Positions 45,733 to 64,000 of a DNA stretch of 64,000 bases are shown piece after piece. Made by a program: the position numbers and the translations under genes. Source of the DNA: Spirochaetota bacterium (GTDB taxonomy: Bacteria > Spirochaetota > Spirochaetia > Treponematales > Rectinemataceae); assembly GCA_029778945.1 (NCBI GenBank), contig JAKPBN010000444.1:1-64000 (forward strand). The letters run 5' to 3'. Below the pieces are notes generated by a model. That model did not search any database, was not told the origin of the DNA, and worked only from the letters and a program-made list of their open reading frames with translations. The first letter of the stretch is position 1, and every line of letters begins with the position of its first letter.

Positions 45733-46191
45733 CTAGACCTCAACCTTGACCACGATCTTGCGCATAGCCTGCCTGGCCCGGGCCTCGCAGCCGGGCTTAT
45801 GGGCATCCTGGGGAAAGAAGACCGCCACCCGGCCGGGCACCAGGGGCAGGGCCAGCTCCAGGCCCCTGGCCTTGCCCAGGAAGCCAATGTCGCGCTCCTC
45901 GTCAAAGGCTTCCCGGGGCTCGAGCTCCGAGAGGGGCACGGCGTAGCAGACTTCCTCTCCCGAGAGGGCAAACTGGATGTCGATATAGCGCCTATGGCAC
46001 TCATAGTCGGCGGTCTCGGGCTTCTTGGTCTCGTAGGCCTGGACCAAGACGATGACCTTCTCCCCATCGATGGGATATCTGCCCGGCTCTAGCTTGCCCA
46101 GGTCCCGGCCCTCGAGATAGTCGATCGCCGTGTCCAGGTTCCTGAGGAGGCCCTTGTAGCGGCCTAGGGCGGAAAGCCTGTCATAGATCAT
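45733..46191 (-). CDS. YhcH/YjgK/YiaL family protein
   Basis: 152 residues. A cupin-type protein with the DUF386 pattern: [17 protein letters not shown], a conserved [13 protein letters not shown] and [14 protein letters not shown] with the metal-binding His. Members such as NanQ and YiaL act in sugar-acid or sialic acid use, probably as anomerases or isomerases. Its start overlaps the end of the araD-type gene by 4 bp, which fits a sugar-phosphate route. Confidence 0.88.
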
Positions 46192-46898
46192 AGTCCTGTC
46201 TCCTTGGCCTGCCCCTGGCCATAATAGGCCTTGGCTCCATGCTTCCTGAGGTAATGCTTGTCCAGGAGGACTTTCTGCATGGGGGCGATGCCGGGGTTGA
46301 GGCTCCGGCAGTGCCAGGCCATCATCGCGACCTCCTCCAGGACGACGGCGTTGTGCACCGCCTCCAGGGGATCCCTGCCCCAGGTGAAGGGGCCGTGGCT
46401 GTGGACGAGCACCCCGGGCATCTGCATTGGATCCAGGCCATTGAAGCGCTCAATTATGACGGTCCCGGTCTCCTTCTCGTAGGCCCCCTCGATCTCCTCC
46501 TTGGCCATGGGCCGAGTGCAGGGGACCTCACCATAGAAGTAGTCCGCATGGGTGGTGCCGTAGGCGGGTATGCCCAGGCCGGACTGGGCAAAGATCGCGG
46601 CCCAGCGGCTGTGGGTGTGGACAATCCCGCCCAGGCCCGCAAAAGCTTTGTAGAGCTCCAGGTGGGTCGGCGTGTCCGAGGAGGGCTTGAGCCTGCCCTC
46701 GACCGTCCGGCCCTCGAGGTCCACCACCACCATGTCCGCAGGCCCCATGGCCTCGTATTCGACCCCCGAGGGCTTGATCACCACGAGGCCCATGGCCCGG
46801 TCGATGCCCGACACATTGCCCCAGGTAAAGGTGACGAGGCCGTGGCGCGGGAGCTCCAGGTTGGCCTTGAGCACGAGGCTCTTCAACTCTTCAAGCAT
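46188..46898 (-). CDS. L-ribulose-5-phosphate 4-epimerase (AraD/UlaF/SgbE-like)
   Basis: 236 residues from the ATG at 46898, chosen over the GTG at 46904 because AGGA sits 7 bp upstream. Class II aldolase/epimerase motifs: [31 protein letters not shown], and the zinc histidines in HTHSRWA and [10 protein letters not shown]. It converts L-ribulose 5-phosphate to D-xylulose 5-phosphate. No kinase or isomerase for that pathway is visible here, so a different C5/C4 phosphate substrate remains possible. Confidence 0.85.
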
Positions 46899-46919
46899 AT
46901 GCACTTCCTTAAGGACCGA

Positions 46920-47579
46920 TTAGGCCTCTAGGGGCCGTCCCCGATAGGCCTGGACGTTATAGAAGAAATCCAGGGCCGCCCGCTTGCAGTTCTGGATATG
47001 GGACCTCATGGCCTCCTCGGCCTTGTCCGTGTCCCTCTCGACCAGGAGATCGAGGATCTCGAGGTGCTCCTTGCAGGCATCGTGGAGCTTCACCTCGCCC
47101 TGCCTCGAGGAAATGATGACCCGGGTGTTCTCATCGAAGACCTTGCGCATCATGTCCACGATAAAGCGGTTGCCGCAGCCCTCGATGATAAAGAGGTGCA
47201 TGGCCATGTCCAGGCGGAAGTCCGCCCTTACCTCGGCCTCCTTGCCCAGGAATTTGCTCCGGTAGGCCTCGAGCTCCTCCAGGGGGAGGGTGGGGCAGGC
47301 CATCCTAAGGGCGAGGGGCTCGATCTCCAGGCGGACCTGGAAGATCTGGCGCACATCGTTCAGGGAGACATCGGTGACATAGATGCCCTTCTTGGGCAGG
47401 ATCTTGATAAAGCCTTCCTGCTCGATCCGGGTGAGGGCCTGGCGGATGGGGGTGCGGCTAAAGCCAAGCTCGGCGGAGAGCTGGGCCTCGTTCAGCATCG
47501 TCCCGGGGCGGTAGACGCAATTTATGAACCTGTCGCGAAGGATATCGTAGGCGAGATTTTTCAGGTCTCGGTTTGTCAT
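46920..47579 (-). CDS. GntR-family regulator with FCD domain
   Basis: 219 residues from the ATG at 47579, which has GAGGA at a proper distance; ATG at 47588 abuts that site. The winged helix (LSAELGFSRTPIRQALTRIEQEGFI) precedes an FCD effector domain (VRLEIEPLALRMA, FRLDMAMHLFIIEGCGN, CKEHLEILDLLVERDTDKAEEAMRSHI) with the Asp/His metal-ligand pattern. FCD proteins commonly sense carboxylates or sugar acids. It is divergent from the galB-galC-tct run and upstream of araD-yhcH on its own strand, so it could control both. Confidence 0.88.
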   Translation of the reverse strand: MTNRDLKNLAYDILRDRFINCVYRPGTMLNEAQLSAELGFSRTPIRQALTRIEQEGFIKILPKKGIYVTDVSLNDVRQIFQVRLEIEPLALRMACPTLPLEELEAYRSKFLGKEAEVRADFRLDMAMHLFIIEGCGNRFIVDMMRKVFDENTRVIISSRQGEVKLHDACKEHLEILDLLVERDTDKAEEAMRSHIQNCKRAALDFFYNVQAYRGRPLEA

Positions 47580-47806
47580 TGTTCCCATTCCTCGTTCTTT
47601 AGATAAACGAAGTATACAACAGGAATTTCCCCTTCGCAATGCTAAATGGGCGACTAATCCCGGCTTGGACATAAGGTATTCCCTAGTTTCCGGCCGTGGC
47701 TCTTCCTAGCCTGCCATGGGCAGCACGGGGAAGCCCCCGCACATTTTTTCCTCAGCCTTGCCTCTAATTTATGGTCAGGCAAAAAATAAGCGATCGCCTA
47801 AAAACA

Positions 47807-47859: not shown

Positions 47860-47911
47860 TATGCATCCAAATAGCTTGGGCTAGGCAAGCAGCCAGGCCC
47901 GACAGGTGGGA

Positions 47912-48613
47912 ATGATGGCCGAGACGAGAGCAGCGATCCGGGGGATATCCTCCATGGCAACCCGCCTCCTCCTGGAAGAGTTGGTGGCTAGGCATAACCG
48001 AGGCTCCTCCCTCCCGGTGCGCATAGAGTCCGTGGGCGGGGTGGATGCGGCCAAGCGGGTTGTCGCCGGAGAGGCCTTTGATCTCGTGATCCTGGGCTCC
48101 GAGGCCATCGACAAGCTTATCTCCTCGGGCCATGCCCTTGAGGGCAGCAAGGTGGACTTGGTGCGCTCCGGGGTGGCGGTCGCGGTCCGGGAAGGCACGG
48201 CCAAGCCTGATATCTCCACCGTCAAGGCCCTTAGGGAAACCCTTCTGGCCGCACCCAGCATCTCCTATTCGACCGGCCCCAGTGGCCTGGCCCTGGCCAG
48301 GCTCTTCCAGGATCTGGGCCTCGGGAAGACCCTGGAGTCCCGCATTATCCAGCCTCCCCCGGGGATCCCCGTGGGAAGCCTTGTGGCCCGGGGCGAGGTG
48401 GCCCTGGGCTTCCAGCAGCTGAGCGAGCTCATGCACCTCGAGGGCATCACGGTCCTGGGGGCCTTGCCCGCGGAGATCCAGATCATCACCACCTTTTCTG
48501 GAGCCCTTTGCCCGGCCACGAAAAACGCCGAGGCCGCCCGGGCCTTCCTGGCCTTCCTGGCCTCCCCCGAGACCGCCGAGGCCAAGGTCCGCCAGGGCAT
48601 GGAGCCGGCCTAG
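47912..48613 (+). CDS. ModA-like substrate-binding domain protein without signal peptide
   Basis: 233 residues; start among GTG 47906, ATG 47912 and ATG 47915 is uncertain. The fold is a type II periplasmic binding protein (RIESVGGVDAAKRVVAGEAFDLVILGSEAIDKLISSG, YSTGPSGLALARLFQDLGL, GEVALGFQQLSELM, FLAFLASPETAEAKVRQGMEPA), closest to molybdate-binding proteins. No N-terminal hydrophobic segment is present, and no ABC permease is near. It probably acts in the cytosol, perhaps as a sensor or carrier for the organic acid degraded by the following genes. Confidence 0.7.
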   Translation: MMAETRAAIRGISSMATRLLLEELVARHNRGSSLPVRIESVGGVDAAKRVVAGEAFDLVILGSEAIDKLISSGHALEGSKVDLVRSGVAVAVREGTAKPDISTVKALRETLLAAPSISYSTGPSGLALARLFQDLGLGKTLESRIIQPPPGIPVGSLVARGEVALGFQQLSELMHLEGITVLGALPAEIQIITTFSGALCPATKNAEAARAFLAFLASPETAEAKVRQGMEPA

Positions 48614-48671
48614 AAAACGCGCGAATAATCCGGGCCGCCTAAGGCGGCCTCGGACCATGGAGGATAGATAG

Positions 48672-49397
48672 ATGGAACGGAAGAGAATGCTGGTGATAAG
48701 CGCCCATGCGGCCGACTATGTCTGGAGGGCCGGCGGGACCATCGCCTCCTATATCGATGGCGGCGCGGAAGTCTGCCTCGTCGTCCTCTCCTTTGGGGTG
48801 AGGGGGGAGTCCAACGACCTGTGGAAGGGCGAGGGCCAGACCGCGGCCAAGGTCGCCGAGATCCGCAAGGGCGAGACCCTGGCGGCGGCGGCCATCCTTG
48901 GCCTCAAGAATGTGGAGTTCTGGGACTTCGAGGACTATCCCATGGACTTTGGCCGGGAGAGGCTCGACAGGCTCACCACGACCATCAGGCGCTTCCGCCC
49001 CGATGTCGTCCTGACCCATGGGCCCAAGGATGCCTTCAACCCCGACCATGAGGGAGTCTCCGACGCTGTCTTCCAGGCCTGCGTGATGGCCAACTCCGCC
49101 GGAGCCCAGTACGACGGGCTTCCCGTCACAAAGCAGATGGCGATCTTTGGCTTTGAGCCCCACCAGACGGAGATCAGCGACTTTAGGCCCGGCACGATAA
49201 TCGACATCTCGGCCACCTTCGAGAGAAAGAAGGCGGCCATGGCCTGCTTCAAGGCCCAGAAGCACCTGATCGAGTATTACACGATGCGCGCCCTCATGCG
49301 GGGCAACCATGCGCGCAGGATCTCGGGCAACCAGGAGTATGTGGCCGCCGAGTGCTTCTCCAACTTTTTCCCCACCGTCCGCGGGGAGTTCGTGTGA
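48672..49397 (+). CDS. 4-oxalomesaconate hydratase-like protein (GalB, PIG-L family)
   Basis: 241 residues; ATG at 48672 with GGAGGA upstream. The N-terminus reads ISAHAADYVWRAGGTIA, the variant of the PIG-L AHPDDE metal site (H12, D15) that I recall for Pseudomonas GalB. FGVRGESNDLW, DLxDYP-like FEDYPMDF, DxxNPDHEGV and FEPHQTEI also fit. GalB adds water to 4-oxalomesaconate to give 4-carboxy-4-hydroxy-2-oxoadipate, the substrate of the aldolase encoded next with a 1-bp overlap. Confidence 0.82.
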   Translation: MERKRMLVISAHAADYVWRAGGTIASYIDGGAEVCLVVLSFGVRGESNDLWKGEGQTAAKVAEIRKGETLAAAAILGLKNVEFWDFEDYPMDFGRERLDRLTTTIRRFRPDVVLTHGPKDAFNPDHEGVSDAVFQACVMANSAGAQYDGLPVTKQMAIFGFEPHQTEISDFRPGTIIDISATFERKKAAMACFKAQKHLIEYYTMRALMRGNHARRISGNQEYVAAECFSNFFPTVRGEFV

Positions 49398-50119
49398 TGG
49401 AGCGCTATGTGGTCCGGAACATCGACAGGCCCCCCCAGGAGCTCTGCGCCGAGCTCGGCCGCCTTGGGGTAGCCACGGTCTATGAGGCCCAGGGCCAGAC
49501 CGGCCTCATGGATGACCGGATGCGGCCGATCCAGCAGGACGCCTCGGTCTGCGGCCCCGCGGTGACGGTCATCTGCCCGGCGGGGGACAATCTCATGCTC
49601 CATGCCGCCGTGGAATGCTGCCAGCCGGGGGATGTGGTGGTAATCACCACCGAGGGCGAGTCGAACAAGCACGGGATGATGGGCGACCTCCTGGTCCAGA
49701 GCCTCCTAGCCCGAGGAGTCCGGGCCGTGATCATGGACGCCGGGGTCAGGGACACGGCCAGGCTCCGGGAGATGGGCTTTCCGGTGTGGACCACCTCGGT
49801 GGCCTGCACGGGAACCACCAAGTCCAAGGCCGGCTGGGTAAACGCCCCCGCGGTCTGCGCCGGGGTGATTGTCGAGGCCGGGGACCTGATTGTCGCCGAC
49901 GACGACGGGGTAGTGGTGGTCAAGAGGCAGGATGCCTCCAAGGCCCTCGAGGCCTCCCTTGCCCGGGAGAAGAAGGAAGAGGGGACCCGGGCGAAGATAG
50001 CCGCAGGCCAGCTCGGGGTCGACTTCTACGGCTTCCGGGAAGTCCTGGCCAAGCTCGGGGTCAAGTACTACGATGACGAGAAGGGACGCAGGGCCAGCCT
50101 CCCGGGGGAGGGGAAGTGA
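49397..50119 (+). CDS. 4-carboxy-4-hydroxy-2-oxoadipate aldolase (GalC/LigK/RraA-like)
   Basis: 240 residues from the ATG at 49397 (GGGGAG upstream). It is RraA-fold, with the D-x20-R-D motif of genuine class II HMG/CHA aldolases intact: Asp97, then Arg118-Asp119. This separates it from non-catalytic RraA. It would split 4-carboxy-4-hydroxy-2-oxoadipate into pyruvate and oxaloacetate. The neighbour on one side is the matching hydratase and on the other a dehydrogenase; stops and starts overlap, so the three are co-translated. Confidence 0.85.
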   Translation: MERYVVRNIDRPPQELCAELGRLGVATVYEAQGQTGLMDDRMRPIQQDASVCGPAVTVICPAGDNLMLHAAVECCQPGDVVVITTEGESNKHGMMGDLLVQSLLARGVRAVIMDAGVRDTARLREMGFPVWTTSVACTGTTKSKAGWVNAPAVCAGVIVEAGDLIVADDDGVVVVKRQDASKALEASLAREKKEEGTRAKIAAGQLGVDFYGFREVLAKLGVKYYDDEKGRRASLPGEGK

Positions 50120-51009
50120 CCGCTCCTCGACTGGGATTCATCGGATTTGGGGAAGCCGCCTTCCATATCGCCAAGGGCCTCACCGGGGCCGGACTTGGGG
50201 GGATCAAGGCCTTTGACCTGATGGCCAGCGACCCCGGGCTTGGGCCCCTCGTGGCCCAGCGGGCGGCCGGAGCAGGCGTGGCCCTCCTGCCCAGCCTGGC
50301 CGAGCTCCTGGAGTCCTGTGACCTCGTCCTCTGCGCCACAAGCGCCAAATACGCCCTGGCCATCGCCCGGGAGGCCGCGGCCTCGGTCCATCCGGGCCTG
50401 GTCTACGCCGACCTCAACAGCGCCTCCCCGGGGACCAAGAAGGACATCGCCGCCCTCATGGCCACGGCGGGGGCCCTCTTCGCGGACGTGGCGGTGATGG
50501 AGCTTGTCCCCCCCCACGGCCACAAGGTGCCCCTCGCGGTGAGCGGAACCGGGGCCAGGGCCTTCCTGGAGGGGCTCACGCCCTATGGGATGAGGATCAG
50601 CCTGATCGAGGGCGAGGCGGGCTCCTCCTCAGCCCTCAAGATGCTCAGGTCCATCTTCATGAAGGGGATGACGGCCCTCCTCCTCGAGACCCTCACGGCG
50701 GGCAGGAAGGCCGGCGTGGACAGGCAGATCATGGAGTCCATCTCCGCCACCATAGGGTCCCGGCCCCTGGAGGAGACGGCCACCATGCTCATCACGAGGA
50801 CGGCCATCGCCGCCGAGCGCCGGGTCGCCGAGATGGGGGAGGTCCTGGATACCCTGGCGGAGATGGGCCTGGACTCCACGGCCAGCCAGGCCACAAAGGC
50901 GAAGCTCCAGGCCCTGGCCGAGCTCGACCTGCGGGCCAAGTTCGGCTCAAGCCCGCCGGAGACCTACACCGCTGTCTTGGACGCTATTTTGGAGAAGACC
51001 GGCCGCTAG
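50116..51009 (+). CDS. NAD(P)-dependent dehydrogenase with DUF1932 C-terminal domain
   Basis: 297 residues from a GTG at 50116 overlapping the aldolase stop (GTGA), with GGGGGAGGGG upstream. The N-terminal Rossmann domain (LGFIGFGEAAFHIAKGL) belongs to the 6-phosphogluconate/3-hydroxyisobutyrate dehydrogenase superfamily; the C-terminal helices (SALKMLRSIFMKGMTALLLE) are DUF1932. The substrate is unknown; by context it may reduce or oxidise a C6-C7 hydroxy- or keto-acid feeding the hydratase. Confidence 0.8.
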   Translation: MTAPRLGFIGFGEAAFHIAKGLTGAGLGGIKAFDLMASDPGLGPLVAQRAAGAGVALLPSLAELLESCDLVLCATSAKYALAIAREAAASVHPGLVYADLNSASPGTKKDIAALMATAGALFADVAVMELVPPHGHKVPLAVSGTGARAFLEGLTPYGMRISLIEGEAGSSSALKMLRSIFMKGMTALLLETLTAGRKAGVDRQIMESISATIGSRPLEETATMLITRTAIAAERRVAEMGEVLDTLAEMGLDSTASQATKAKLQALAELDLRAKFGSSPPETYTAVLDAILEKTGR

Positions 51010-51037
51010 AGGCGACCGCATCAATTAGGAGGATACT

Positions 51038-52033
51038 ATGAGAGGCATCAATCTCCGGAGGGCCCTTGCGGCCCTGGTCCTGGCGGCGGTCGCGGGCGGC
51101 GGCGCCCTTGCGGCACCCAGCTATCCTGTGAAGACCATCACCTTTGTGGCTCCCTCCGGGGCCGGCGGGGCCTTTGACATGGCCCGCAGGGCCATCACCA
51201 AGGCCCTGACGGACACCAAGATCGTCGACCAGCAGATGCTCGTCGAGGCCCGGCCCGGCGGGGGCGGCTCGGTCTTCCTGGCCGAATATGTCCTCCAGGA
51301 CATCAAGAACGACTACAAGCTTTTCCTGACCTCCCCCACGATGCTCATCAACAACCTGAAGAAGGAGGGCAACTCCCCCTTCACCTACAAGAATGTCACG
51401 CCCCTGGCCCAGTTCTTTGTGGACTACGCGGTCATAGCCGTGCCCGCCAACTCCAAGTACAAGGACGTCAAGGCCCTCTTTGCGGACATGAAGAGCGATC
51501 CCACCAAGATCTCCGTGGTGGGTGGCTCGGGGCCCGGGGCTGTCGACCACCTGGCTTTCCTCCTCCCGGCCTTCAAGTCCGGGGTGGATCCCAAGCGGGT
51601 CAAGTACATCTCCTATGACGGCAAGGCCGAGGCCATGGCCGCCATCCTGGGCGGAAACGGCGACGTGCTCACGAGCGTCACCGCCTCGGTGTCCGAATAC
51701 CTCGAGGCCGGAAAGATCCGGGTCCTGGCGGTCAACGCGCCCCAGCGCCTGGGCGGGGTCTTCAAGAATGTCCCGACCCTCAGGGAGTCCGGGATCCCCG
51801 CGGATTTCGTGATCTGGCGTGGCGTCTTTGGGCCGCCCCAGATGAGCGCCGCCGCCAAGGCCTACTGGATCGACGCCTTCACCAAGCTCTCCAAGACCGA
51901 TCTCTGGACCCAGGAGCTGGCTAAGCGCGGCTGGGACGCGGAGTTCCTGGCCGGTGATGCCTTTACGAAAAACCTTGACCAGCAGAACAAGGACCTCTCC
52001 GAGCTGCTTACCGTCCTAGGCATGGCCAAGTAG
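51038..52033 (+). CDS. tctC: TTT transporter solute-binding protein (TctC/Bug family)
   Basis: 331 residues with a signal peptide (~1-26, ending ALAA); AGGAGG upstream of the ATG. Bug-family motifs: YPVKTITFVAPSGAGGAFD, ARPGGGGSVFLAEYV, and SVVGGSGPGAVDHLAF. It captures a carboxylic acid in the periplasm for TctBA. It is downstream of the aldolase operon with a 28-bp gap, suggesting the ligand is the acid that those enzymes process. Confidence 0.87.
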   Translation: MRGINLRRALAALVLAAVAGGGALAAPSYPVKTITFVAPSGAGGAFDMARRAITKALTDTKIVDQQMLVEARPGGGGSVFLAEYVLQDIKNDYKLFLTSPTMLINNLKKEGNSPFTYKNVTPLAQFFVDYAVIAVPANSKYKDVKALFADMKSDPTKISVVGGSGPGAVDHLAFLLPAFKSGVDPKRVKYISYDGKAEAMAAILGGNGDVLTSVTASVSEYLEAGKIRVLAVNAPQRLGGVFKNVPTLRESGIPADFVIWRGVFGPPQMSAAAKAYWIDAFTKLSKTDLWTQELAKRGWDAEFLAGDAFTKNLDQQNKDLSELLTVLGMAK

Positions 52034-52050
52034 ACTTACCCCATGCCACT

Positions 52051-52095
52051 GGAGGTCCCAGGCCTGGCCATGCCAAGCCTGGGCCTCCTCCTTTT
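52051..52095 (+). other. Stem-loop between tctC and tctB
   Basis: GGAGGTCCCAGGCCTGGC pairs with GCCAAGCCTGGGCCTCC across a CAT loop (one bulge, one mismatch), followed by TTTT at 52092. A likely attenuator or RNA-stability element that keeps the binding protein more abundant than the membrane subunits. Confidence 0.6.
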
Positions 52096-52121
52096 ACCAT
52101 ACCCATCCGGAGGCAATCTTG

Positions 52122-52595
52122 ATGAACAAGCGATTCGATATACTGGCGGGAGGGGCCTTCATGGCCATCGGGGCCTTCTTTGTGACCGCGAGCAGGGGCA
52201 TCACAAAGAGCTCCTATGGCAGCAATGTCGGGCCTGCTGTCTTTCCCACGATCCTCGGGTCCTTGCTCATCCTCCTTAGCCTCATGGTTGTCTACAAGGC
52301 CTTGGCCTCGGGCAAGGCCACCAAGAGCGGCTCGATCAGGGACTACGGGCGCCTAGCCATCCTGATCCTGGCCACAATTGTCTATATCCTCCTATTCAGG
52401 CCCCTGGGCTATGTGATCTCCACCTTCATCTACCTTTCCTTTGTCTTCCAGTTCATGGAGAGGAAGCGGCTGCTGTCCTCCCTCCTGATCTCAGCGGGCT
52501 TTTCCGTGGCCGTATACGCCGCCTATGTCGGGCTATTCCAGGGCAACCTTCCGCCCTTTCCGGAATTCCTGACCGCCCTCTTCGCAAGGAGCTGA
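52122..52595 (+). CDS. tctB: TTT transporter small membrane subunit (TctB)
   Basis: 157 residues from the ATG at 52122 (GGAGG 8 bp upstream). Four hydrophobic helices with the TctB pattern GPAVFPTILGSLLILLSL in helix 2 and a late RPLGYVISTFIYLSFVF. It pairs with TctA, whose start follows 2 bp after this stop. Confidence 0.85.
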   Translation: MNKRFDILAGGAFMAIGAFFVTASRGITKSSYGSNVGPAVFPTILGSLLILLSLMVVYKALASGKATKSGSIRDYGRLAILILATIVYILLFRPLGYVISTFIYLSFVFQFMERKRLLSSLLISAGFSVAVYAAYVGLFQGNLPPFPEFLTALFARS

Positions 52596-52597
52596 CC

Positions 52598-54124
52598 ATG
52601 GATACCCTACACTACCTGGCCATGGGCTTTTCCCAGGCCCTCCAGCTCCACAACATCCTGTTCTGCTTTATCGGGGTGTTTATCGGCACCGCCGTGGGAG
52701 TCCTCCCGGGCATCGGCCCCTCGAGCGGCACCGCCCTCCTCATACCCATCACGGCCTCGGTGACCAGCCTCCTAAGCCCGGAGAGCGCGGCGACAAGCGC
52801 GATCATCATGCTGGCCGGGGTCTTCTACGGGGCCATGTACGGCGGCTCCACGACGAGCGTCCTGATCAACACCCCCGGGGAGTCGGCCTCTGTTGTCACC
52901 TGCCTGGATGGCCACCAGATGGCCAAGAAGGGCCGGGCCGGGGCTGCCCTGGCCATAGCGGCCATCGGATCCTTTATCGCCGGCCTCTTTGCCCTTGTGA
53001 TGCTCGTCCTCCTCGCCAAGCCCCTCGCGGACGTGGCCCTCCGCTTCGGCCCGAGCGAGTATTTTTCCCTCGTGGTCCTCGGCCTGGCCGCCCTCACGGG
53101 CCTGGCGGGGAAGTCCATGCCCAAGGCCCTCATCATGCTTGTCATGGGCCTCCTCCTGTCCACGGTCGGGATAGACACCGTGTCTGGCTCGGAGCGCTTT
53201 GCCTTTGGCATCCCCATCCTCTACCAGGGCTTTGACTTCATAACCATCGCCGTGGGCATGTTCGCCCTGGGCGAGGTCTTCCGCTCGATACTCCAGTGGG
53301 ACTCGAGCGCCCAGGATTTTCCCAAGATCGGCCGCATCCTTCCGACCCGGGAGGACATGAGAAGGTCCTGGAAGCCTATCGCCCGGGGCTCGGTGATGGG
53401 CTTTTTCCTGGGCATCCTCCCCGGGGCGGGGGCAACCCTCTCCTCCTTCCTCTCCTACACCACGGAGAAGAAGCTCTCCAAGCACCCCGAGGAATTCGGC
53501 CATGGGGCCATCGAGGGGGTGGCTGGCCCCGAGTCGGCCAACAACGCCGCCGCCGGTGGGGCCCTTATTCCCCTTCTTGCCCTGGGCATACCCTCCTCGG
53601 CCACCACCTCGGTCCTGATGGGCGCCTTCATGATGTACAATGTCGCCCCGGGGCCCCTCCTTTTTGACAAGCATCCCCTCGTGGCCTGGGGCGTCATCGC
53701 CTCGATGTTCCTCGGGAACCTGATGCTCCTCATCCTCAACATGCCCCTCGTGAAGATCTTCGCCAAGCTCGTGGAGGTCCCTGCCAAGTACCTCCTGCCT
53801 ATCATCATGGGGATCTGCGTGTTTGGGATCTATGCCGTCCAGGGCAATGTCTTTAACCTCTTGGTCATGCTTTTCTTTGGCGTGGCGGGCTTTTTCCTTG
53901 TGGCCAACGACTTTCCCGCGGCGCCCCTGGTCCTGGGCCGGGTTCTTGGGCCCATGCTGGAGAACAACTTCCGCCGGGCCCTCACGGGCAGCAACGGCGA
54001 CTATTCGGTCTTTATCACCCGGCCGGTTTCGGCTATCCTCCTGGCCGTGGCCTTACTCTGGATAGTCATCCCTGTTATCCTCAAGATGCGGGGCCGGAAT
54101 GTGCTGACCAGCGACGAAAAATAA
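52598..54124 (+). CDS. tctA: TTT transporter large membrane subunit (TctA)
   Basis: 508 residues, about twelve helices. The TctA signatures are clear: GVLPGIGPSSGTALLIPIT, FYGAMYGGSTTSVLINTPGE, LGILPGAGATLSSFLSY and LALGIPSSATTSVLMGAFMMY. It moves the substrate bound by TctC, driven by an ion gradient. Ends 51 bp before the regulator gene. Confidence 0.92.
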   Translation: MDTLHYLAMGFSQALQLHNILFCFIGVFIGTAVGVLPGIGPSSGTALLIPITASVTSLLSPESAATSAIIMLAGVFYGAMYGGSTTSVLINTPGESASVVTCLDGHQMAKKGRAGAALAIAAIGSFIAGLFALVMLVLLAKPLADVALRFGPSEYFSLVVLGLAALTGLAGKSMPKALIMLVMGLLLSTVGIDTVSGSERFAFGIPILYQGFDFITIAVGMFALGEVFRSILQWDSSAQDFPKIGRILPTREDMRRSWKPIARGSVMGFFLGILPGAGATLSSFLSYTTEKKLSKHPEEFGHGAIEGVAGPESANNAAAGGALIPLLALGIPSSATTSVLMGAFMMYNVAPGPLLFDKHPLVAWGVIASMFLGNLMLLILNMPLVKIFAKLVEVPAKYLLPIIMGICVFGIYAVQGNVFNLLVMLFFGVAGFFLVANDFPAAPLVLGRVLGPMLENNFRRALTGSNGDYSVFITRPVSAILLAVALLWIVIPVILKMRGRNVLTSDEK

Positions 54125-54175
54125 AAACAGCCGGGGCGGCGGGGACCGCCCCTGAGCGGGCGACAGGAGACGTGC

Positions 54176-54817
54176 TTGCATAACCAGACCAACCAGGCCT
54201 ATCAGGCCATCCGCGACGGGATTCTTGAGGGCCGCTACAAGCCCTCGGCGAGCCTGACCGAGCTAAGCCTGGCCCAGGAGCTGGGCGTGAGCCGGAACAC
54301 GATCAAGAAGGCCCTGCTCAAGCTTGAGAGCGAGAACCTGGTGCTGATCGAGGACAACAAGCGGGCGATAGTGCGCTCCTTCTCTGTGGAGGAGGTCCTC
54401 CAGTATCTGCGGGTCAGGGAGGTCCTCGAGGGCCTTGTGATCCGGGAGGCCCTGCCCCTGATAGGCGACGCCGAAGTGGAGGAGATGGCCTCCATCCTCG
54501 CGGGGATGGAGACCCTCCTTGGCGCAGGGGACCTCAAGGGCTATTCCGAGGGCAACTGGCGCTTCCACGCGGTCATCTACCGGACCTGCCCCAACCGTCC
54601 TGCGGTCGACCTGGTCCTCTCGATCAAGAACCAGCTAAAGCGCTACAACGTCAAGACGATCTTTATCCAGGGTCGAGGCGCCTCCTCCTACGGGGAGCAC
54701 CATGCGATCCTGGAGGCCGTGAGGCTGAGGGATGTCGATGAGGCCGAGCGCTGCATCCGCCGGCACATAGCGAGCATGCGCGAGGTGATCACCCGGTATT
54801 ACGAGCTCCTGTTCTAG
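54176..54817 (+). CDS. GntR-family regulator (FCD-type), TTG start
   Basis: 213 residues from a TTG at 54176 with AGGAGA 6 bp upstream. The helix-turn-helix (LSLAQELGVSRNTIKKALLKLESENLV) is followed by a helical effector domain of the FCD type (YLRVREVLEGLVIREALPLIGD, GNWRFHAVIYRTCPN, HHAILEAVRLRDVDEAERCIRRHI). It is the last gene of the galB-tct run and probably a second, local regulator. A GGGGCGG/CCGCCCC hairpin without T-run lies in the 51-bp gap before it. Confidence 0.85.
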   Translation: MHNQTNQAYQAIRDGILEGRYKPSASLTELSLAQELGVSRNTIKKALLKLESENLVLIEDNKRAIVRSFSVEEVLQYLRVREVLEGLVIREALPLIGDAEVEEMASILAGMETLLGAGDLKGYSEGNWRFHAVIYRTCPNRPAVDLVLSIKNQLKRYNVKTIFIQGRGASSYGEHHAILEAVRLRDVDEAERCIRRHIASMREVITRYYELLF

Positions 54818-57954: not shown

Positions 57955-59011
57955 ATGTTGACAGTTGGTCGCCTTGCCAAAGGAAGCCAGTCACGGTCCT
58001 TCAAGGCCGGTAGCCTCGTCCTGCTAGCCGTGCTCCTGTTCGCCGCTGCGGCTCCCGTTTACTCCCTCCCAGACTAAGGAGGTCAAGCTCCGCTATTCCC
58101 TCCTCTGGCCCGCTACTCACCCAATGACCAAGCTCGCTGGCGAGTGGGGAGCCGCTGTCGAGGCGGCCACCTCCGGCCGCGTCAAGGTCACCCTTTTCCC
58201 CGGCAATACCCTCACCCCGCCCATGCAGGCCTATGACAATGTGGCCAAGGGCATCGTCGACATGGCCGGCTGCCTCCTGGCCTACGCCCCTGGGCGCCTG
58301 CCCCTCTCCGAGGTCCTCCAGCAGCCCCTCGGATACAAGAACGGCTACCAGGCGACCACCCTCGCGAACGCCTTCTACAAGAAATTCCTGCCCAAGGAAT
58401 TCAATGACGTCCAGGTCATGTACCTCCATGGCGCCGCCCCTGGCTTTATCATGACCAAGAAGGCCGTGACCTCCATCAAGGACGTGAAGGGCCTCCGGAT
58501 CAAGGCCAATGCCGAGAACGCCGACATCGTCACCAACCTCGGCGCCGCCCCGGTCACCATGCCCGTCAGCGACGCCTACGACTCGGTCCAGCGCGGCGTC
58601 ATAGACGGCACCCTCTTCCCCATTGAGGCCCTCCAGGGCTACAAGATCGGCGAGGTCGTCAAGACCGTCATCCAGGACTACGGCATGTCCTACATGACCT
58701 CCATGTACGTCATCGTGAACAAGGACAAGTGGAACTCCATCGACCCCGCGGACCGCAAGGCCATTGAGAAGATCAATGACGAGTGGGTCGAGAAGACCGG
58801 CAAGCTCTGGGTCGAGCTCGACGCCAAGGCCAAGGACTTCGCCGTGAGCAAGGGCGTGACCTTCCTCGAGGTCTCGGCCGCCGACCAGGCCGCCACCGCC
58901 GCCATTATGAGGCCCATCCTGGACTCCTATGTGAAGATGGCCAATTCCAAGGGCCTGCCCGGCGACGCGGCCCTCAAGTTCTGCCTGGACTTTATCAAGA
59001 ACAGCAAGTAA
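57955..59011 (+). pseudogene. dctP: TRAP transporter solute-binding protein, frameshifted after the signal peptide
   Basis: ATG at 57955 with AAGGAGG upstream begins a signal peptide (AGSLVLLAVLLFAAAAPVYS). The frame hits TAA at 58075-58077. Reading one base further on restores KEVKLRYSLLWPATHPMTKL and the full DctP fold to 59011 (FPGNTLTPPMQAYDNVAKGIVD, GLRIKANAENADIV, GAAPVTMPVSDAYDSVQRGVIDG). A single-base insertion near 58068-58077 would explain this. It is real damage, a consensus error, or less likely programmed shifting. The ligand is probably a carboxylate. Confidence 0.82.
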
Positions 59012-59022
59012 GCGCTCTCAAG

Positions 59023-59050
59023 GGCTTCCCCCCCATCGCGGGGGGAAGCC
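59023..59050 (+). other. Stem-loop between dctP and dctQ
   Basis: Perfect 11-bp stem, GGCTTCCCCCC (59023-59033) and GGGGGGAAGCC (59040-59050), six-base loop, no T-run. Probably stabilises the upstream dctP message or attenuates reading into dctQM, as at the tctC-tctB junction. Confidence 0.65.
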
Positions 59051-59120
59051 AGTCACAACATATCCGCAGGCCCTGGTGGCCAAATCCGCACAACAAGACC
59101 CGCGGTTCGAGGGGACGAAG

Positions 59121-59624
59121 ATGAAGCATTTCCAGAGGTTCATCAAGGGCACGGACCTTGTGCTCTATTCGATAGCAGGCGCGGTGCTGATTGGCCTCGT
59201 GCTGATAACGCTCTGCGATGTGATCCTGCGCAATTTTGGCCATCCCATCACGGGCTCGATGGAGATCATCCAGTACGGCGGAGCCATTGTCTTTGCCTTT
59301 GCCGTCCCCTTCGCCACCACCCTGGGCGCGCAGATCATCGTGGACATCGTCACGGAGAAGCTGAGGCCCGGAGCCCAGCGCGTCATGTCGATCATCACGA
59401 GGATTGTCGGGGTCCTCCTCTTCCTCTTTGTCTCCTACAACTTCTACCTCTACGGCCTGGATGTCAGACGGACCGGCGAGCTCAGCGCCTCCTTCAAGAT
59501 CCCCTACTATCCGATCGTCTTCGCCATGGCCTTTAGCTTCCTCTTCCAGGCCCTTACCGTCCTGCTCGACCTGATCAACACACTGCGCGGCGCCGAAACC
59601 GGAGCTGAAGGAGAGGGGAAATGA
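59121..59624 (+). CDS. dctQ: TRAP transporter small permease subunit (DctQ)
   Basis: 167 residues from the ATG at 59121 (GAGGGG 6 bp upstream); an earlier in-frame ATG at 59076 lacks a ribosome site. Four helices with the DctQ pattern: VLITLCDVILRNFGHPITGSME, FAFAVPFATTLGAQIIVDIV and a final YYPIVFAMAFSFLFQAL. Its stop overlaps the dctM start by 4 bp. Confidence 0.87.
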   Translation: MKHFQRFIKGTDLVLYSIAGAVLIGLVLITLCDVILRNFGHPITGSMEIIQYGGAIVFAFAVPFATTLGAQIIVDIVTEKLRPGAQRVMSIITRIVGVLLFLFVSYNFYLYGLDVRRTGELSASFKIPYYPIVFAMAFSFLFQALTVLLDLINTLRGAETGAEGEGK

Positions 59625-60931
59625 GCTCTGAAGTCCTCGTCGGCATCATCGGCATAGTGGCGATGCTCCTTCTTTTCATGACCGGCCTCGAGATGGCCTA
59701 TTGCATGGTCTTGGTCGGCTTCTTCGGCTTCACGACCCTCATGTCCTTCATTCCCGCCTCGAACCTGGTGGTCAAGGACTTTTTCGACGCCTTCACGACC
59801 TACAGCTATACGGTCATACCTCTTTTCGTTCTGATGGGCGAATTCGCCGCGAACACGAACATAGCCAAGCGACTCTATGCCGGCGCCTACAAGTGGTTTG
59901 GCCATGTCCCTGGCGGCCTGGCCATGACGACCGTCGTAGGGGCCACCGCCTTCAAGGCGATGTGCGGCTCGACCCTCGCCACCGTGGGAACCTTCGCCGG
60001 CCTCGCGATCCCCGAGATGGACCGCTTCGGCTACAAGAAGGAGCTCTCCGCGGGCACCGTCGCCTCGGTAGGGACGATCGGCATGATCCTGCCCCCAAGC
60101 ACGGTCCTGATCCTCTATGGCCTCATCTGCGAGCAGTCGATCGGCCGCCTCTTCCTGGCCGGCATCATGCCCGCCCTCATGATCGCCTTCCTCTTTATGC
60201 TGGTCATCGCGGCCTGGGTCATGATCAAGCCGAATGTCGCCCCCCGGGGAGAGAAGTCTTCCTGGATCGAGCGCTTCAAGGCCCTGCCCGAGATGCTCGC
60301 GGTCCTCGTGGTGTTCGGCATCGTCATCGGCGGCATGATGTTCGGCTACTTCAGCCCTACCGAGGCCGGCACGATCGGCACCGTTGCGGTCTTCCTCCTG
60401 GCCCTGGTCCGCAGGGAAGTAAGCCTCACGATGATCAAGAAGTCCGTCAAGGGCGCGCTCAAGACCGCGGTCATGACCCTCATGCTGATCGCCGGCTCCT
60501 CGATCTTTGGCCACTTCCTCACGATCACCGAGATCCCCTTCCGCGCCGCGGATTGGGCGGCCTCCCTTCCCTTGCCCGCCTGGTCCATCATGGTCGTCAT
60601 CATCGTGATCTACCTTGTGGGCGGCTCCATCATGGACGACCTGGCCTTCATGGTCCTCGCGACGCCGATATTCTTTCCCACGGCCCTGGTCCTTGGCTTC
60701 GATCCGATCTGGTTTGGCATCATGGTCTCCATCACCCTCATGATCGGGGGCCTCATCCCGCCCGTCGCCCTGTACGTGTTCATAACCGGAAATATAACGG
60801 GCATACCCTTCAAGACAATCTACAAGGGGGTAGTCCCCTACCTGGGGGCCTTGGTTGTCGCCCTCATCTTGATCTTTGTCTTCCCCGAGATCATCACCTG
60901 GCTGCCGGACAAGCTGATGGGAAAGATGTGA
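59621..60931 (+). CDS. dctM: TRAP transporter large permease subunit (DctM)
   Basis: 436 residues, twelve or so helices. DctM motifs: PLFVLMGEFAANTNIAKRLY, GGLAMTTVVGATAFKAMCGS, GTVASVGTIGMILPPSTVLILYG and FSPTEAGTIGTVAVF, with GGLIPPVALYVF near the end. It carries the ion-coupled transport path for the acid bound by DctP. Confidence 0.92.
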   Translation: MSSEVLVGIIGIVAMLLLFMTGLEMAYCMVLVGFFGFTTLMSFIPASNLVVKDFFDAFTTYSYTVIPLFVLMGEFAANTNIAKRLYAGAYKWFGHVPGGLAMTTVVGATAFKAMCGSTLATVGTFAGLAIPEMDRFGYKKELSAGTVASVGTIGMILPPSTVLILYGLICEQSIGRLFLAGIMPALMIAFLFMLVIAAWVMIKPNVAPRGEKSSWIERFKALPEMLAVLVVFGIVIGGMMFGYFSPTEAGTIGTVAVFLLALVRREVSLTMIKKSVKGALKTAVMTLMLIAGSSIFGHFLTITEIPFRAADWAASLPLPAWSIMVVIIVIYLVGGSIMDDLAFMVLATPIFFPTALVLGFDPIWFGIMVSITLMIGGLIPPVALYVFITGNITGIPFKTIYKGVVPYLGALVVALILIFVFPEIITWLPDKLMGKM

Positions 60932-61927: not shown

Positions 61928-62006
61928 GGTGAACTAACTACATCCATATCATGTTTGCGGACAGCGGCTTATGCCGATGCGAATCTTTATTTCATGGGGG
62001 TGGAGA

Positions 62007-63485
62007 ATGGCAAGCCTCTCAACACAGCTCGCCGGGATTGTCGGGAAGGAGAACCTCGCCGAAGATCCCGCGACGCTCGACCTATACGCGAGAGACTCCA
62101 GTTTTGCGGAGCCGATTCGCCCACGCTATGTGGTCAAGGTCAAGGACGCAGACCAGGTCCAGCGGATCGTCAAGTTGGCGAATGAGACGAAGACGCCTAT
62201 CGTGCCGGTGAGCTCCACGGGGCCGCGGCACAATGGTGACACGGTCCCCAGCGTCCCCGAGTCCATCATCGTGGACCTCTCGGGCATGAAGCGGATCATC
62301 AGCATCAACCGCCAGCAGCGGGTTGTGATCGTCGAGCCCGGGGTAACCTATGGCGAGCTCCAGCCCGCCTTGGCGGCCGAGGGCCTCACCCTCTCCCTGC
62401 CCCTGGCCACCAAGGCCGGCAAGTCCGTCGTGGCGAGCGTCCTCGACCTCGAGCCCCGGCTCAACGCCCTGCACCAGTGGAATTTCATCGATCCCCTGCG
62501 CTGCACCGAGGTGATCTGGGGCGACGGCAACCGAATGTATACCGGCGAGGCCGGCGGCGGCCCCCTTGATGTGGAGAAGCAGCAGGCCGGCGAGCGCTGG
62601 CAGGTGAGCGGCACTGGCCCCATGATGCTCGATTTCTACCGCCTCCTCACGGGCTCCCAGGGCAGCATGGGCATCGTGACCTGGGCCTCCCTGAAGTGCG
62701 ACGTCCTCTCCCCTGAGCGGGACCTCTGCGTGGTCCCCGCGGAAAAGGCGGAGGATCTTGTCGATTTCCTCTACCGCGTGACCAGGCTCCGCCTCGGCGC
62801 GGAGGCCCTCCTCGTCAACGCCGCGACCCTGGCATCCCTCCTTGGCAAGGACCCCGCCGAGATCTCCGCCCTGGCCCGGAGCCTTCCGGCCTGGATGGCC
62901 CTCATCGGGATCAACGGGCAGTCGATCCTGCCTGAGATGCGCGCCGCCGCCCACATCGCCGACATCGGAGAGATCGCCCAGCAGTTCGGCCTCAGGATGG
63001 TCGATTCCCTGCCTGGCATCCCGGGGAAGAGGATCCTGGAAAAGCTGACCGAGCCCTCGGGCAAGGTCTTCTGGAAGGACTGCCTCAAGGGGACAAGCGC
63101 CTCTCTCTTTTTCACCACGACCCTCGACTCGGCGGCCGACTATATCTCCACCGTCCAGGGCCTTGTCGCGGCCCAGGGCTGGAATCCCGCGGAGATCGGC
63201 GTCTATGTCCAGCCCCAGAACATGGGGACGAGCATCCAGCTCGAGTTTATCATCCCCTACAACTCGGCCGACCGCGTCGAGGCGGACCGGGCCAAGCGCC
63301 TCTTCACCGAGGCGAGCGTCGCCTGTGCCCGGAAGGGCGCGTATTTCCTGCGGCCGCACGGCATCTGGGCGGCTCTCCAGCTCAACAAGGACGTCCAGTC
63401 CGCAGCGCTGCTGCGCAGGATGAAGGGCGTATTCGACCCAAACAACATCATGAACACCGGCAAGCTCGGTCTACAGGGGGCATGA
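62007..63485 (+). CDS. FAD-binding oxidoreductase (GlcD/VAO-type PCMH domain)
   Basis: 492 residues from the ATG at 62007. The FAD domain has PRYVVKVKDADQVQRIVKLANETKTPIVPVSST and PESIIVDLSGMKRI ... VIVEPGVTYGELQPAL, the standard PCMH pattern; LTGSQGSMGIVTWASLK is the second FAD-contact region. The C-terminal substrate domain ends FDPNNIMNTGKL, typical of glycolate/lactate-type dehydrogenases. It should oxidise a 2-hydroxy acid or a related compound and pass electrons to the Fe-S protein encoded 1 bp downstream. Confidence 0.83.
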   Translation: MASLSTQLAGIVGKENLAEDPATLDLYARDSSFAEPIRPRYVVKVKDADQVQRIVKLANETKTPIVPVSSTGPRHNGDTVPSVPESIIVDLSGMKRIISINRQQRVVIVEPGVTYGELQPALAAEGLTLSLPLATKAGKSVVASVLDLEPRLNALHQWNFIDPLRCTEVIWGDGNRMYTGEAGGGPLDVEKQQAGERWQVSGTGPMMLDFYRLLTGSQGSMGIVTWASLKCDVLSPERDLCVVPAEKAEDLVDFLYRVTRLRLGAEALLVNAATLASLLGKDPAEISALARSLPAWMALIGINGQSILPEMRAAAHIADIGEIAQQFGLRMVDSLPGIPGKRILEKLTEPSGKVFWKDCLKGTSASLFFTTTLDSAADYISTVQGLVAAQGWNPAEIGVYVQPQNMGTSIQLEFIIPYNSADRVEADRAKRLFTEASVACARKGAYFLRPHGIWAALQLNKDVQSAALLRRMKGVFDPNNIMNTGKLGLQGA

Positions 63486-63486
63486 G

Positions 63487-64000
63487 ATGGCACTCACGGA
63501 TTTTAGGCCGATGGAGGAACGCTGCAGCTCCTGCCTTGGCTGCAAGTGGATTCCCTTCGACAAGGTAAAGAGCCTCAGGTTCGGGGAGAACTGCCCGAGC
63601 ATCTCCTATGGCAACTTCAACGCGTATTCCGCCCGGGGGCGCTTTGTGCTCGGCCTCGCCCTCCAGACGGGAGACGCCGATCTCTCGGAGACGACGACCG
63701 AGGTGATCCAGAGCTGCATGTCCTGCGGCGCCTGCGACGTGGCCTGCAAGGTCACCCGCTATAACCTTGAGCCCCTTGACCACAACATCGAGCTCAAGGC
63801 CCACGCGATTGCCGCGGGCAAGGTCCATCCCGAGCAGAAAAAGATCATGGATGCCCTGTCCAAGGAAAAGACCATGATCCCAGGGAAGTCCAAAGCCGAT
63901 AGGCTCGCCTGGGCCGAGGGCCTCGGCCTCAAGGACCTGAGCAAGACCAAGGGCGAGGTCCTCTTTTTCGCGGGCTGCAAGTACAGCTACGACCCGGCCC
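63487..64000 (+). CDS. Fe-S oxidoreductase (GlcF/HdrD-like), truncated by window end
   Basis: 171 codons are visible. Cysteine clusters CSSCLGC and CMSCGACDVACK indicate [4Fe-4S] sites, the first shorter than a standard ferredoxin motif. The sequence at the window edge, LFFAGCKYSYD, starts a CCG-type domain. With the FAD protein it would form a GlcDF-like membrane-associated dehydrogenase. The C-terminus is outside the window. Confidence 0.75.
   Translation, partial: MALTDFRPMEERCSSCLGCKWIPFDKVKSLRFGENCPSISYGNFNAYSARGRFVLGLALQTGDADLSETTTEVIQSCMSCGACDVACKVTRYNLEPLDHNIELKAHAIAAGKVHPEQKKIMDALSKEKTMIPGKSKADRLAWAEGLGLKDLSKTKGEVLFFAGCKYSYDPA

Follow-up and report, generated by a model that had tools for sequence, protein, structure and literature searches.

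The closest described relatives of the system treated here are the galBCD operon of Pseudomonas putida KT2440 and Pseudomonas sp. NGC7, for which the chemistry of GalD, GalB and GalC has been described (PMC12314914, available part of the text), and plasmid-borne operons for protocatechuate (PCA) 4,5-cleavage. We compare with them a 64,000-nucleotide stretch of a Spirochaetota genome bin (assembly GCA_029778945.1, contig JAKPBN010000444.1), hereafter the window, in which eight plus-strand genes at 47906-54817 form a run with intergenic gaps of -4 to 85 bases. They encode, from 5' to 3', an SBP_11/ModA-like protein, a GalB-type hydratase of the PIG-L fold, an RraA/LigK aldolase, a DUF1932 protein, the subunits TctC, TctB and TctA of a tripartite tricarboxylate transporter (TTT) and a GntR/FCD regulator.

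We propose that this run is an import-and-split operon, a reading that we hold to be evenly balanced between right and wrong. TctCBA would import a tricarboxylic acid, presumably 4-oxalomesaconate (OMA) or one like it; the ModA-like protein, if cytoplasmic, would isomerise OMA in place of the missing tautomerase GalD/LigU; GalB would hydrate the isomerised acid; and LigK would split 4-carboxy-4-hydroxy-2-oxoadipate (CHA) into pyruvate and oxaloacetate. The DUF1932 protein may contribute an auxiliary redox reaction, and the FCD regulators may respond to an acid. It is from gene content that we infer each of these reactions in this organism, and also that what enters the cell is a preformed acid and not an aromatic compound. 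The enzyme families are known; what is new is that they are linked to an importer with the usual dioxygenase missing, and that one slot of the arrangement is exchanged. The genes of the run are:

47906..48613 (ATG at 47912), plus strand: SBP_11/ModA-like protein, 235 amino acids (Pfam SBP_11, 145.2 bits)
48672..49397, plus strand: GalB-type hydratase, PIG-L fold, 241 amino acids (PIG-L domain, 97.7 bits; PDB 5cgz, E-value 7.6e-53)
49397..50119, plus strand: LigK/GalC-type aldolase, RraA-like (PDB 3noj, E-value 7.3e-68; above the NCBIfam NF006731 cut-off)
50116..51009, plus strand: DUF1932 beta-hydroxyacid-dehydrogenase-like protein, 297 amino acids (Pfam DUF1932, 50.9 bits; PDB 3qsg, E-value 1.2e-49)
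51038..52033, plus strand: TctC, periplasmic receptor of the TTT (Pfam TctC, 80.1 bits)
52119..52595, plus strand: TctB, small membrane subunit (Pfam TctB, 79.6 bits)
52598..54124, plus strand: TctA, large membrane subunit (Pfam TctA, 530.4 bits)
54176..54817, plus strand: GntR/FCD transcriptional regulator, last gene of the run (Pfam FCD, 94.5 bits; GntR, 56.2 bits)

The aldolase ATG overlaps the hydratase stop, and its open frame opens already at 49352. DUF1932, TctC, TctB, TctA and GntR/FCD all score above their Pfam cut-offs, and the three Tct subunits stand together, so that the DUF1932 dehydrogenase and complete TctCBA transporter named in the original prediction, which had been made from the letters of the window, are both present in one run. 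That prediction left the first gene, the ModA-like one, unnamed; the start it gave, 47912, is the ATG of this gene.

Hydratase and aldolase

In searches against the PDB, the hydratase matched GalB of P. putida (5cgz), a 4-oxalomesaconate hydratase, with 182.4 bits, against 44.6 bits for the second-best chain, which is a deacetylase. An alignment of the hydratases of the window and of 51 related loci shows H10, A12, D13, R17, R42, E44 and H123 (5cgz numbering) kept in all 52, and many columns agree with the P. putida enzyme. By alignment with 8bgn, A12 occupies the position of the first aspartate of the HPDD motif in PIG-L deacetylases; the metal ligands are kept. In a tree of hydratases, the window protein groups with Bacillota and spirochaete sequences in a supported clade, apart from the proteobacterial GalB group. 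The protein is thus a GalB-type hydratase, as had been supposed, with hydration of OMA or 2-keto-4-carboxy-3-hexenedioate as its predicted reaction.

The best structural match of the aldolase is a CHA aldolase (3noj), and it passes the NCBIfam model NF006731 with 289.2 bits (cut-off 179). E36, H75, G101, D102, R123, D124, G144, K147, R195 and E199 are identical in the window protein and R40 is replaced by glutamine; the D-x20-RD motif claimed for it is intact. Roles of Arg-123, Asp-124 and Glu-199 are given in the accessible part of PMC5065237. The catalytic residues are intact in both the hydratase and the aldolase, and the latter is a LigK/GalC-type enzyme, for which we predict CHA cleavage.

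The same chemistry might act on a different acid, that is, another branched C6-C8 oxo- or hydroxy-polycarboxylate, such as a plant lactone acid or one of the 4-hydroxy-2-oxoglutarate type; the DUF1932 protein would then oxidise a hydroxy acid to give the compound on which hydratase and aldolase act. The aldolase also cleaves 4-hydroxy-4-methyl-2-oxoglutarate (PMC5065237, same part), and DUF1932 is paired with an RraA-type aldolase on plasmids of Rhizobium and Priestia that showed no GalB relative. Further, the aldolases of only five of 41 Bacillota and spirochaete loci are close to that of the window (51-61% identity), and since those of the other 36 are only 28-38% identical, the core of these loci is not clearly fixed to CHA. 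The window aldolase itself, however, belongs to the close group, with 61% identity to that of a Clostridia locus (L009) and up to 54% to LigK of proteobacterial plasmids, and this, together with the hydratase columns shared with P. putida, leads us to consider a different acid unlikely.

The ModA-like protein and the exchange of one slot

We rejected the first gene of the run as a transport component or molybdate-binding ModA: its product scores 26.9 bits on the modA model (cut-off 62.5), no N-terminal signal sequence is visible by eye, and no ABC permease or ATPase is among the Pfam results for the run. At E-values ≤1e-15, the protein was found in one of 392 genomes of the phylum, the source genome itself, and no relatives were found in viral contigs. 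Plasmid records place it in protocatechuate operons of Diaphorobacter, Acidovorax and Arthrobacter keyseri and in gallate operons of Caballeronia and Burkholderia. Its identity to the protein of the Diaphorobacter PCA 4,5-cleavage operon is 65.3%, and the order there and in Acidovorax is ModA-like, LigJ, LigK, DUF1932, LigI, LigA, LigB, LigC. At least 14 of the 40 plasmid records listed, ten of them judged by coordinates, place it in a run with LigK, and the PCA 4,5 and gallate operons that carry it have no GalD relative in the stretch examined. The apparently corresponding gene of Pseudarthrobacter Sphe3, pcaT, is labelled as an ABC-type molybdate transport system in the accessible part of PMC8431788.

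A single-sequence structure model of the protein reached a mean predicted local distance difference test score (pLDDT) of 38.4 and was not used. On a plasmid of Neorhizobium sp. NCHU2750 (L093), a ModA-like relative (40%) accompanies a major facilitator superfamily (MFS) carrier, a LysR regulator, GalB and LigK, next to genes annotated as opine transport; neither GalD nor a dioxygenase has a relative in the surrounding 8 kb.

To place the protein among its alternatives, we examined 80 loci (the window, L009-L059, L070-L077 and L085-L104), 77 of which have a GalB or LigJ relative; L076, L077 and L096 have none and were left out of the count. GalD occurs in 13 of the 77, the ModA-like protein in nine, the family DUF6282 in 44 and none of these in 11, and no locus has two of them together. 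A LigB, GalA or VOC relative accompanies GalD in 9 of 13 loci, the ModA-like protein in 6 of 9 and DUF6282 in 1 of 44; of the 11 remaining loci, two have such a relative. Among the 26 loci with a hydratase in L070-L104 plus the window, the nine with the ModA-like protein and the 13 with GalD do not overlap (Fisher two-sided p 0.00046, only a guide, because six of the nine were chosen via the ModA-like protein, a seventh, L104, was chosen in the knowledge of its presence, and the loci are related). L017 and L055, of equal length and with identical hydratases, are apparently the same contig, and the pairs L010/L011, L045/L047 and L070/L072 are nearly identical. Among the 11 loci with none of the three, some end at or near GalB (for example L014 and L053). 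As the counts cover the stretch examined, they miss partners lying farther away, and as DUF6282 is nearly limited to one hydratase clade, its exclusion of the other two is partly a matter of shared descent.

The simplest reading of this exclusion is that the ModA-like protein does the step of GalD. We therefore regard it as a candidate for an unrelated stand-in of oxalomesaconate tautomerase, which would work as an isomerase in the cytoplasm. The isomerase idea leans on a ModA-like aconitate isomerase of Pseudomonas, a precedent that we could not confirm.

Related loci in other bacteria

The hydratase is found in 6 of the 392 genomes of the phylum, the source genome included (E-values ≤1e-25); neither it nor the ModA-like protein occurs in the four other genomes of the same family in this sample. 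A scan of named genomes yielded 46 hydratase loci, mostly, judging from record titles, from Clostridia and other Bacillota, and also from Treponema and other spirochaetes. Their recurrent neighbourhood consists of DUF6282, GalB, an RraA/LigK aldolase, a tripartite ATP-independent periplasmic (TRAP) or Tct carrier and an FCD regulator, with a TRAP relative in 27 of the 44 DUF6282 loci and a relative of the run's GntR/FCD regulator in 38 of the 51 related loci. No LigB, GalA or VOC relative is found in the examined stretch of 43 of the 44 DUF6282-GalB loci. The Clostridia locus L009 reads DUF6282-GalB-LigK-TctC-(small gene in the place of TctB)-TctA-DUF1932-FCD and is the set of the window with DUF6282 replacing the ModA-like protein; Fusibacter paucivorans (L010) likewise carries DUF6282. 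A Rhizobium daejeonense plasmid (L091) carries GalB-LigK-DUF1932-TctA-TctC-TctB-GalD, and the 8 kb around this set on the plasmid contain no dioxygenase relative; an unannotated Sinorhizobium plasmid has the same set.

A structure model of DUF6282 (mean pLDDT 93.2) is an amidohydrolase barrel. The best rows of its structure comparison, at Z-scores of 18.7-20.4, are spread over dihydroorotase, phosphotriesterase homologue, TatD, dipeptidase and lactonase chains, so that the fold class is clear and the reaction is not. LigI and LigJ were not seen among the best 50 structural matches, which excludes nothing, and the single match of a profile search against the PDB, a binding protein with an E-value of 0.0046, was taken as chance. 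Given the modelled barrel, DUF6282 could hydrolyse 2-pyrone-4,6-dicarboxylate, as LigI does.

From these loci we tentatively extend the proposal, in a form that is on balance doubtful: Bacillota and spirochaetes may share an oxygen-independent module in which an importer, a hydratase and a pyruvate aldolase are joined by one further protein, and which would scavenge ring-cleavage acids that aerobes leak, OMA or 2-pyrone-4,6-dicarboxylate for example. This further slot would be filled by one of three unrelated proteins: by GalD, by the ModA-like protein as a binding protein turned isomerase, or by DUF6282 as an isomerase or lactonase. If so, functions could be assigned to two pathway-associated families, DUF6282 and the ModA-like protein, the latter being the 'molybdate' protein (pcaT) of protocatechuate operons.

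The affinities of the run are mosaic, its hydratase grouping with Bacillota and its ModA-like protein being, among plasmids, 65% identical to Betaproteobacteria. Such a pattern, the lack of both proteins in the four sampled relatives of the same family and the 6.55% contamination of the bin would fit a run that is a piece of a degradation operon acquired by horizontal transfer and in part useless, or else a product of faulty binning. We consider this very improbable, as the reading frames are uninterrupted and lie close together, similar layouts exist in distant bacteria, and the third-position G+C content of the run genes (0.81-0.90) lies inside the range of the other open reading frames picked along the window (0.74-0.94; these frames were chosen partly by the same measure).

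Upstream of the run lie two genes on the other strand:

46920..47672, minus strand: second GntR/FCD regulator, divergent (Pfam FCD, 81.1 bits)
46188-46904, minus strand: AraD, after the second FCD gene on the same strand (above the NCBIfam cut-off)

The two FCD/GntR regulators of the original prediction thus both exist and one ends the run; the second is on the minus strand and outside the coordinates 47912-54817 given there. It may belong to the AraD operon rather than to the run, and the two genes (46188-47672) probably form a separate sugar operon sharing the intergenic space. By eye, this divergent operon (45733-47672) also includes a YhcH/YjgK-like protein. Downstream, at 58124-60931 and 61971-64000, a TRAP-type carrier is followed by an apparent FAD-linked oxidase and an iron-sulphur protein (assigned by eye), which we read as further small-acid catabolism beside the cluster.

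Ring cleavage and oxygen

The genome bin comprises 4.07 Mb in 504 contigs and is 94.7% complete. A profile search found no LigA domain in it or in 18 further GalB-bearing genomes, and matched both of two positive-control protocatechuate plasmids; 14 standard control genomes gave no LigA-family match. In the run, no dioxygenase was found, VOC enzymes included. The bin has two LigB-family genes (L001 and L002, on its contigs C176 and C71), near-identical by eye and each beside an MFS-like carrier, which points to paralogues or a mixed-strain bin. All four PDB matches of the copy that we searched are 4,5-DOPA dioxygenases and YgiD, and the second copy was judged by eye; we therefore rejected these proteins as LigB or GalA and refer to them as DODA/YgiD-like. 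We know of no DODA/YgiD-like enzyme that makes OMA. No LigAB/GalA-type dioxygenase was thus found in the bin, where class I (VOC) enzymes were not searched.

The PrpF-type tautomerase GalD/LigU (PF04303) is likewise without a match in the bin, in a search that matched 2 of the 14 controls. DUF6282 (PF19799) has none in the run and none in the bin, but as no control matched either, its absence from the bin is not firm. One protein exceeds the cut-off for Amidohydro_2, the family of LigI and LigJ; it lies beside an ABC-permease-like gene (by eye), and its sole PDB match is weak and to an uncharacterised protein (E-value 2e-5).

The original prediction had held that no ring-cleaving dioxygenase is present and had named one elsewhere in the genome as counter-evidence. 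Its claim stands for the run, and for the bin as far as LigA-domain enzymes are concerned; a search of the genome for LigAB/GalA and GalD, which it had suggested, brought up neither a LigA domain nor PrpF/GalD. The two DODA/YgiD-like class III extradiol enzymes amount to a weak form of that counter-evidence, as they are not LigB/GalA-like.

Its premise of an anaerobic cell fared worse. The bin encodes a haem-copper oxidase subunit COX1 (541 amino acids, E-value 3.3e-143), with COX3, an SCO protein and cytochrome c as neighbours by eye, and cytochrome bd subunit I; the two loci (L078 and L079) are on contigs C169 and C462 of the bin. Three further genomes of the family, which represent three other genera, have a COX1 of 79-83% identity, so that the oxidase seems to be part of the lineage rather than contamination, whereas 26 of 30 family genomes, including the sole relative of the same genus, have no such match. 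With both oxidases encoded, strict anaerobiosis cannot be assumed, and we rejected it. What survives is the lower gallate/protocatechuate-type module with its own importer, borne out by the genes, by the lack of a LigA-domain dioxygenase in the bin and by similar layouts elsewhere.

These oxidases bear on the possibility that the run belongs to an ordinary aromatic pathway, in which TctCBA imports gallate or protocatechuate, a VOC class I or DODA-like enzyme encoded elsewhere cleaves the ring, and the operon finishes the degradation with oxygen present. The two DODA-like proteins beside MFS-like carriers would fit this, as would the VOC dioxygenase relatives that lie within GalB-LigK-GalD clusters (in Agrobacterium, two Rhizobium, Thioclava, Roseibium and a Paracoccaceae) or at GalB loci (in Heyndrickxia, Tetragenococcus and Thermus). 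Yet the bin has no LigA domain and the run no dioxygenase, 23 of 40 GalB-bearing genomes lack any LigB-family match, and the DODA/YgiD-like enzymes are not known to us as a source of OMA; we therefore judge this pathway rather unlikely. On plasmids of Agrobacterium, Rhizobium and a Paracoccaceae (L097, L099, L103), a VOC class I dioxygenase, possibly a gallate dioxygenase, lies between GalB and LigK; in the first of these, on Agrobacterium pAt, it occupies 8750-9712 of L097, and a tannase gene is nearby.

Several points weigh against import and splitting of a preformed acid. A TTT carrier, one of the candidate protocatechuate importers tested in Vibrio natriegens, could be deleted without effect (PMC13253662, accessible part). 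The two DODA/YgiD-like extradiol enzymes exist in the bin, the terminal oxidases make oxygen-dependent aromatic cleavage in the same cell possible, and the incompleteness, contamination and fragmentation of the bin mean that absence from it is no proof. A GalB-LigK-GalD-Tct cluster of Roseibium (L102) carries a VOC dioxygenase, and the ModA-like gene of Sphaerotilus adjoins only a LigJ relative, with no LigK within 9 kb. Finally, the aldolase scores 254.3 on TIGR02798, the other model of the same name, below the cut-off of 304.5.

Comparison with known systems

In the open-access literature, we found nothing joining 4-oxalomesaconate hydratase with a TTT and nothing on DUF6282; the literature link between CHA and a tricarboxylate transporter is the Vibrio natriegens test, as far as the accessible part of PMC13253662 goes. 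The original prediction had called the pathway not obviously described for spirochaetes: no paper on oxalomesaconate and spirochaetes was found in the open-access literature, and the hydratase, with six genomes of the phylum, is rare among them without being unique. If our proposal is correct, aromatic breakdown would partly continue outside the aerobe that opens the ring, in Bacillota and spirochaetes with a dedicated route for open-chain acids, and such leftovers may themselves serve as food; judging from record titles, animal guts are the source of several of these bacteria.

The galBCD operon of P. putida KT2440 and NGC7 likewise combines a GalB-type hydratase and a GalC-type aldolase. It differs in that our bin has no detected GalA or PrpF-type GalD, and that the run has the ModA-like protein, DUF1932, TctCBA and a GntR/FCD regulator, not the LysR-type GalR. 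The PCA 4,5-cleavage plasmids of Acidovorax and Diaphorobacter (L070, L072) share the order ModA-like protein, hydratase, LigK, DUF1932; their hydratase is of the LigJ type, and relatives of LigI, LigA, LigB and LigC follow, whereas no LigA, LigB, LigI, LigJ or LigC relatives were found in the run of the window. The R. daejeonense plasmid has the same enzymes and transporter type, also with no dioxygenase relative in the 8 kb around them, but GalD instead of the ModA-like protein and LysR instead of FCD. The DUF6282-GalB-RraA/LigK loci (such as L009) have DUF6282 instead of the ModA-like protein, a mostly distant aldolase (28-38% identity) and in 27 of 44 cases a TRAP carrier; they share with the window the hydratase clade, an importer alongside, FCD in most (38 of 51) and, in 18 genomes, the lack of a LigA domain.

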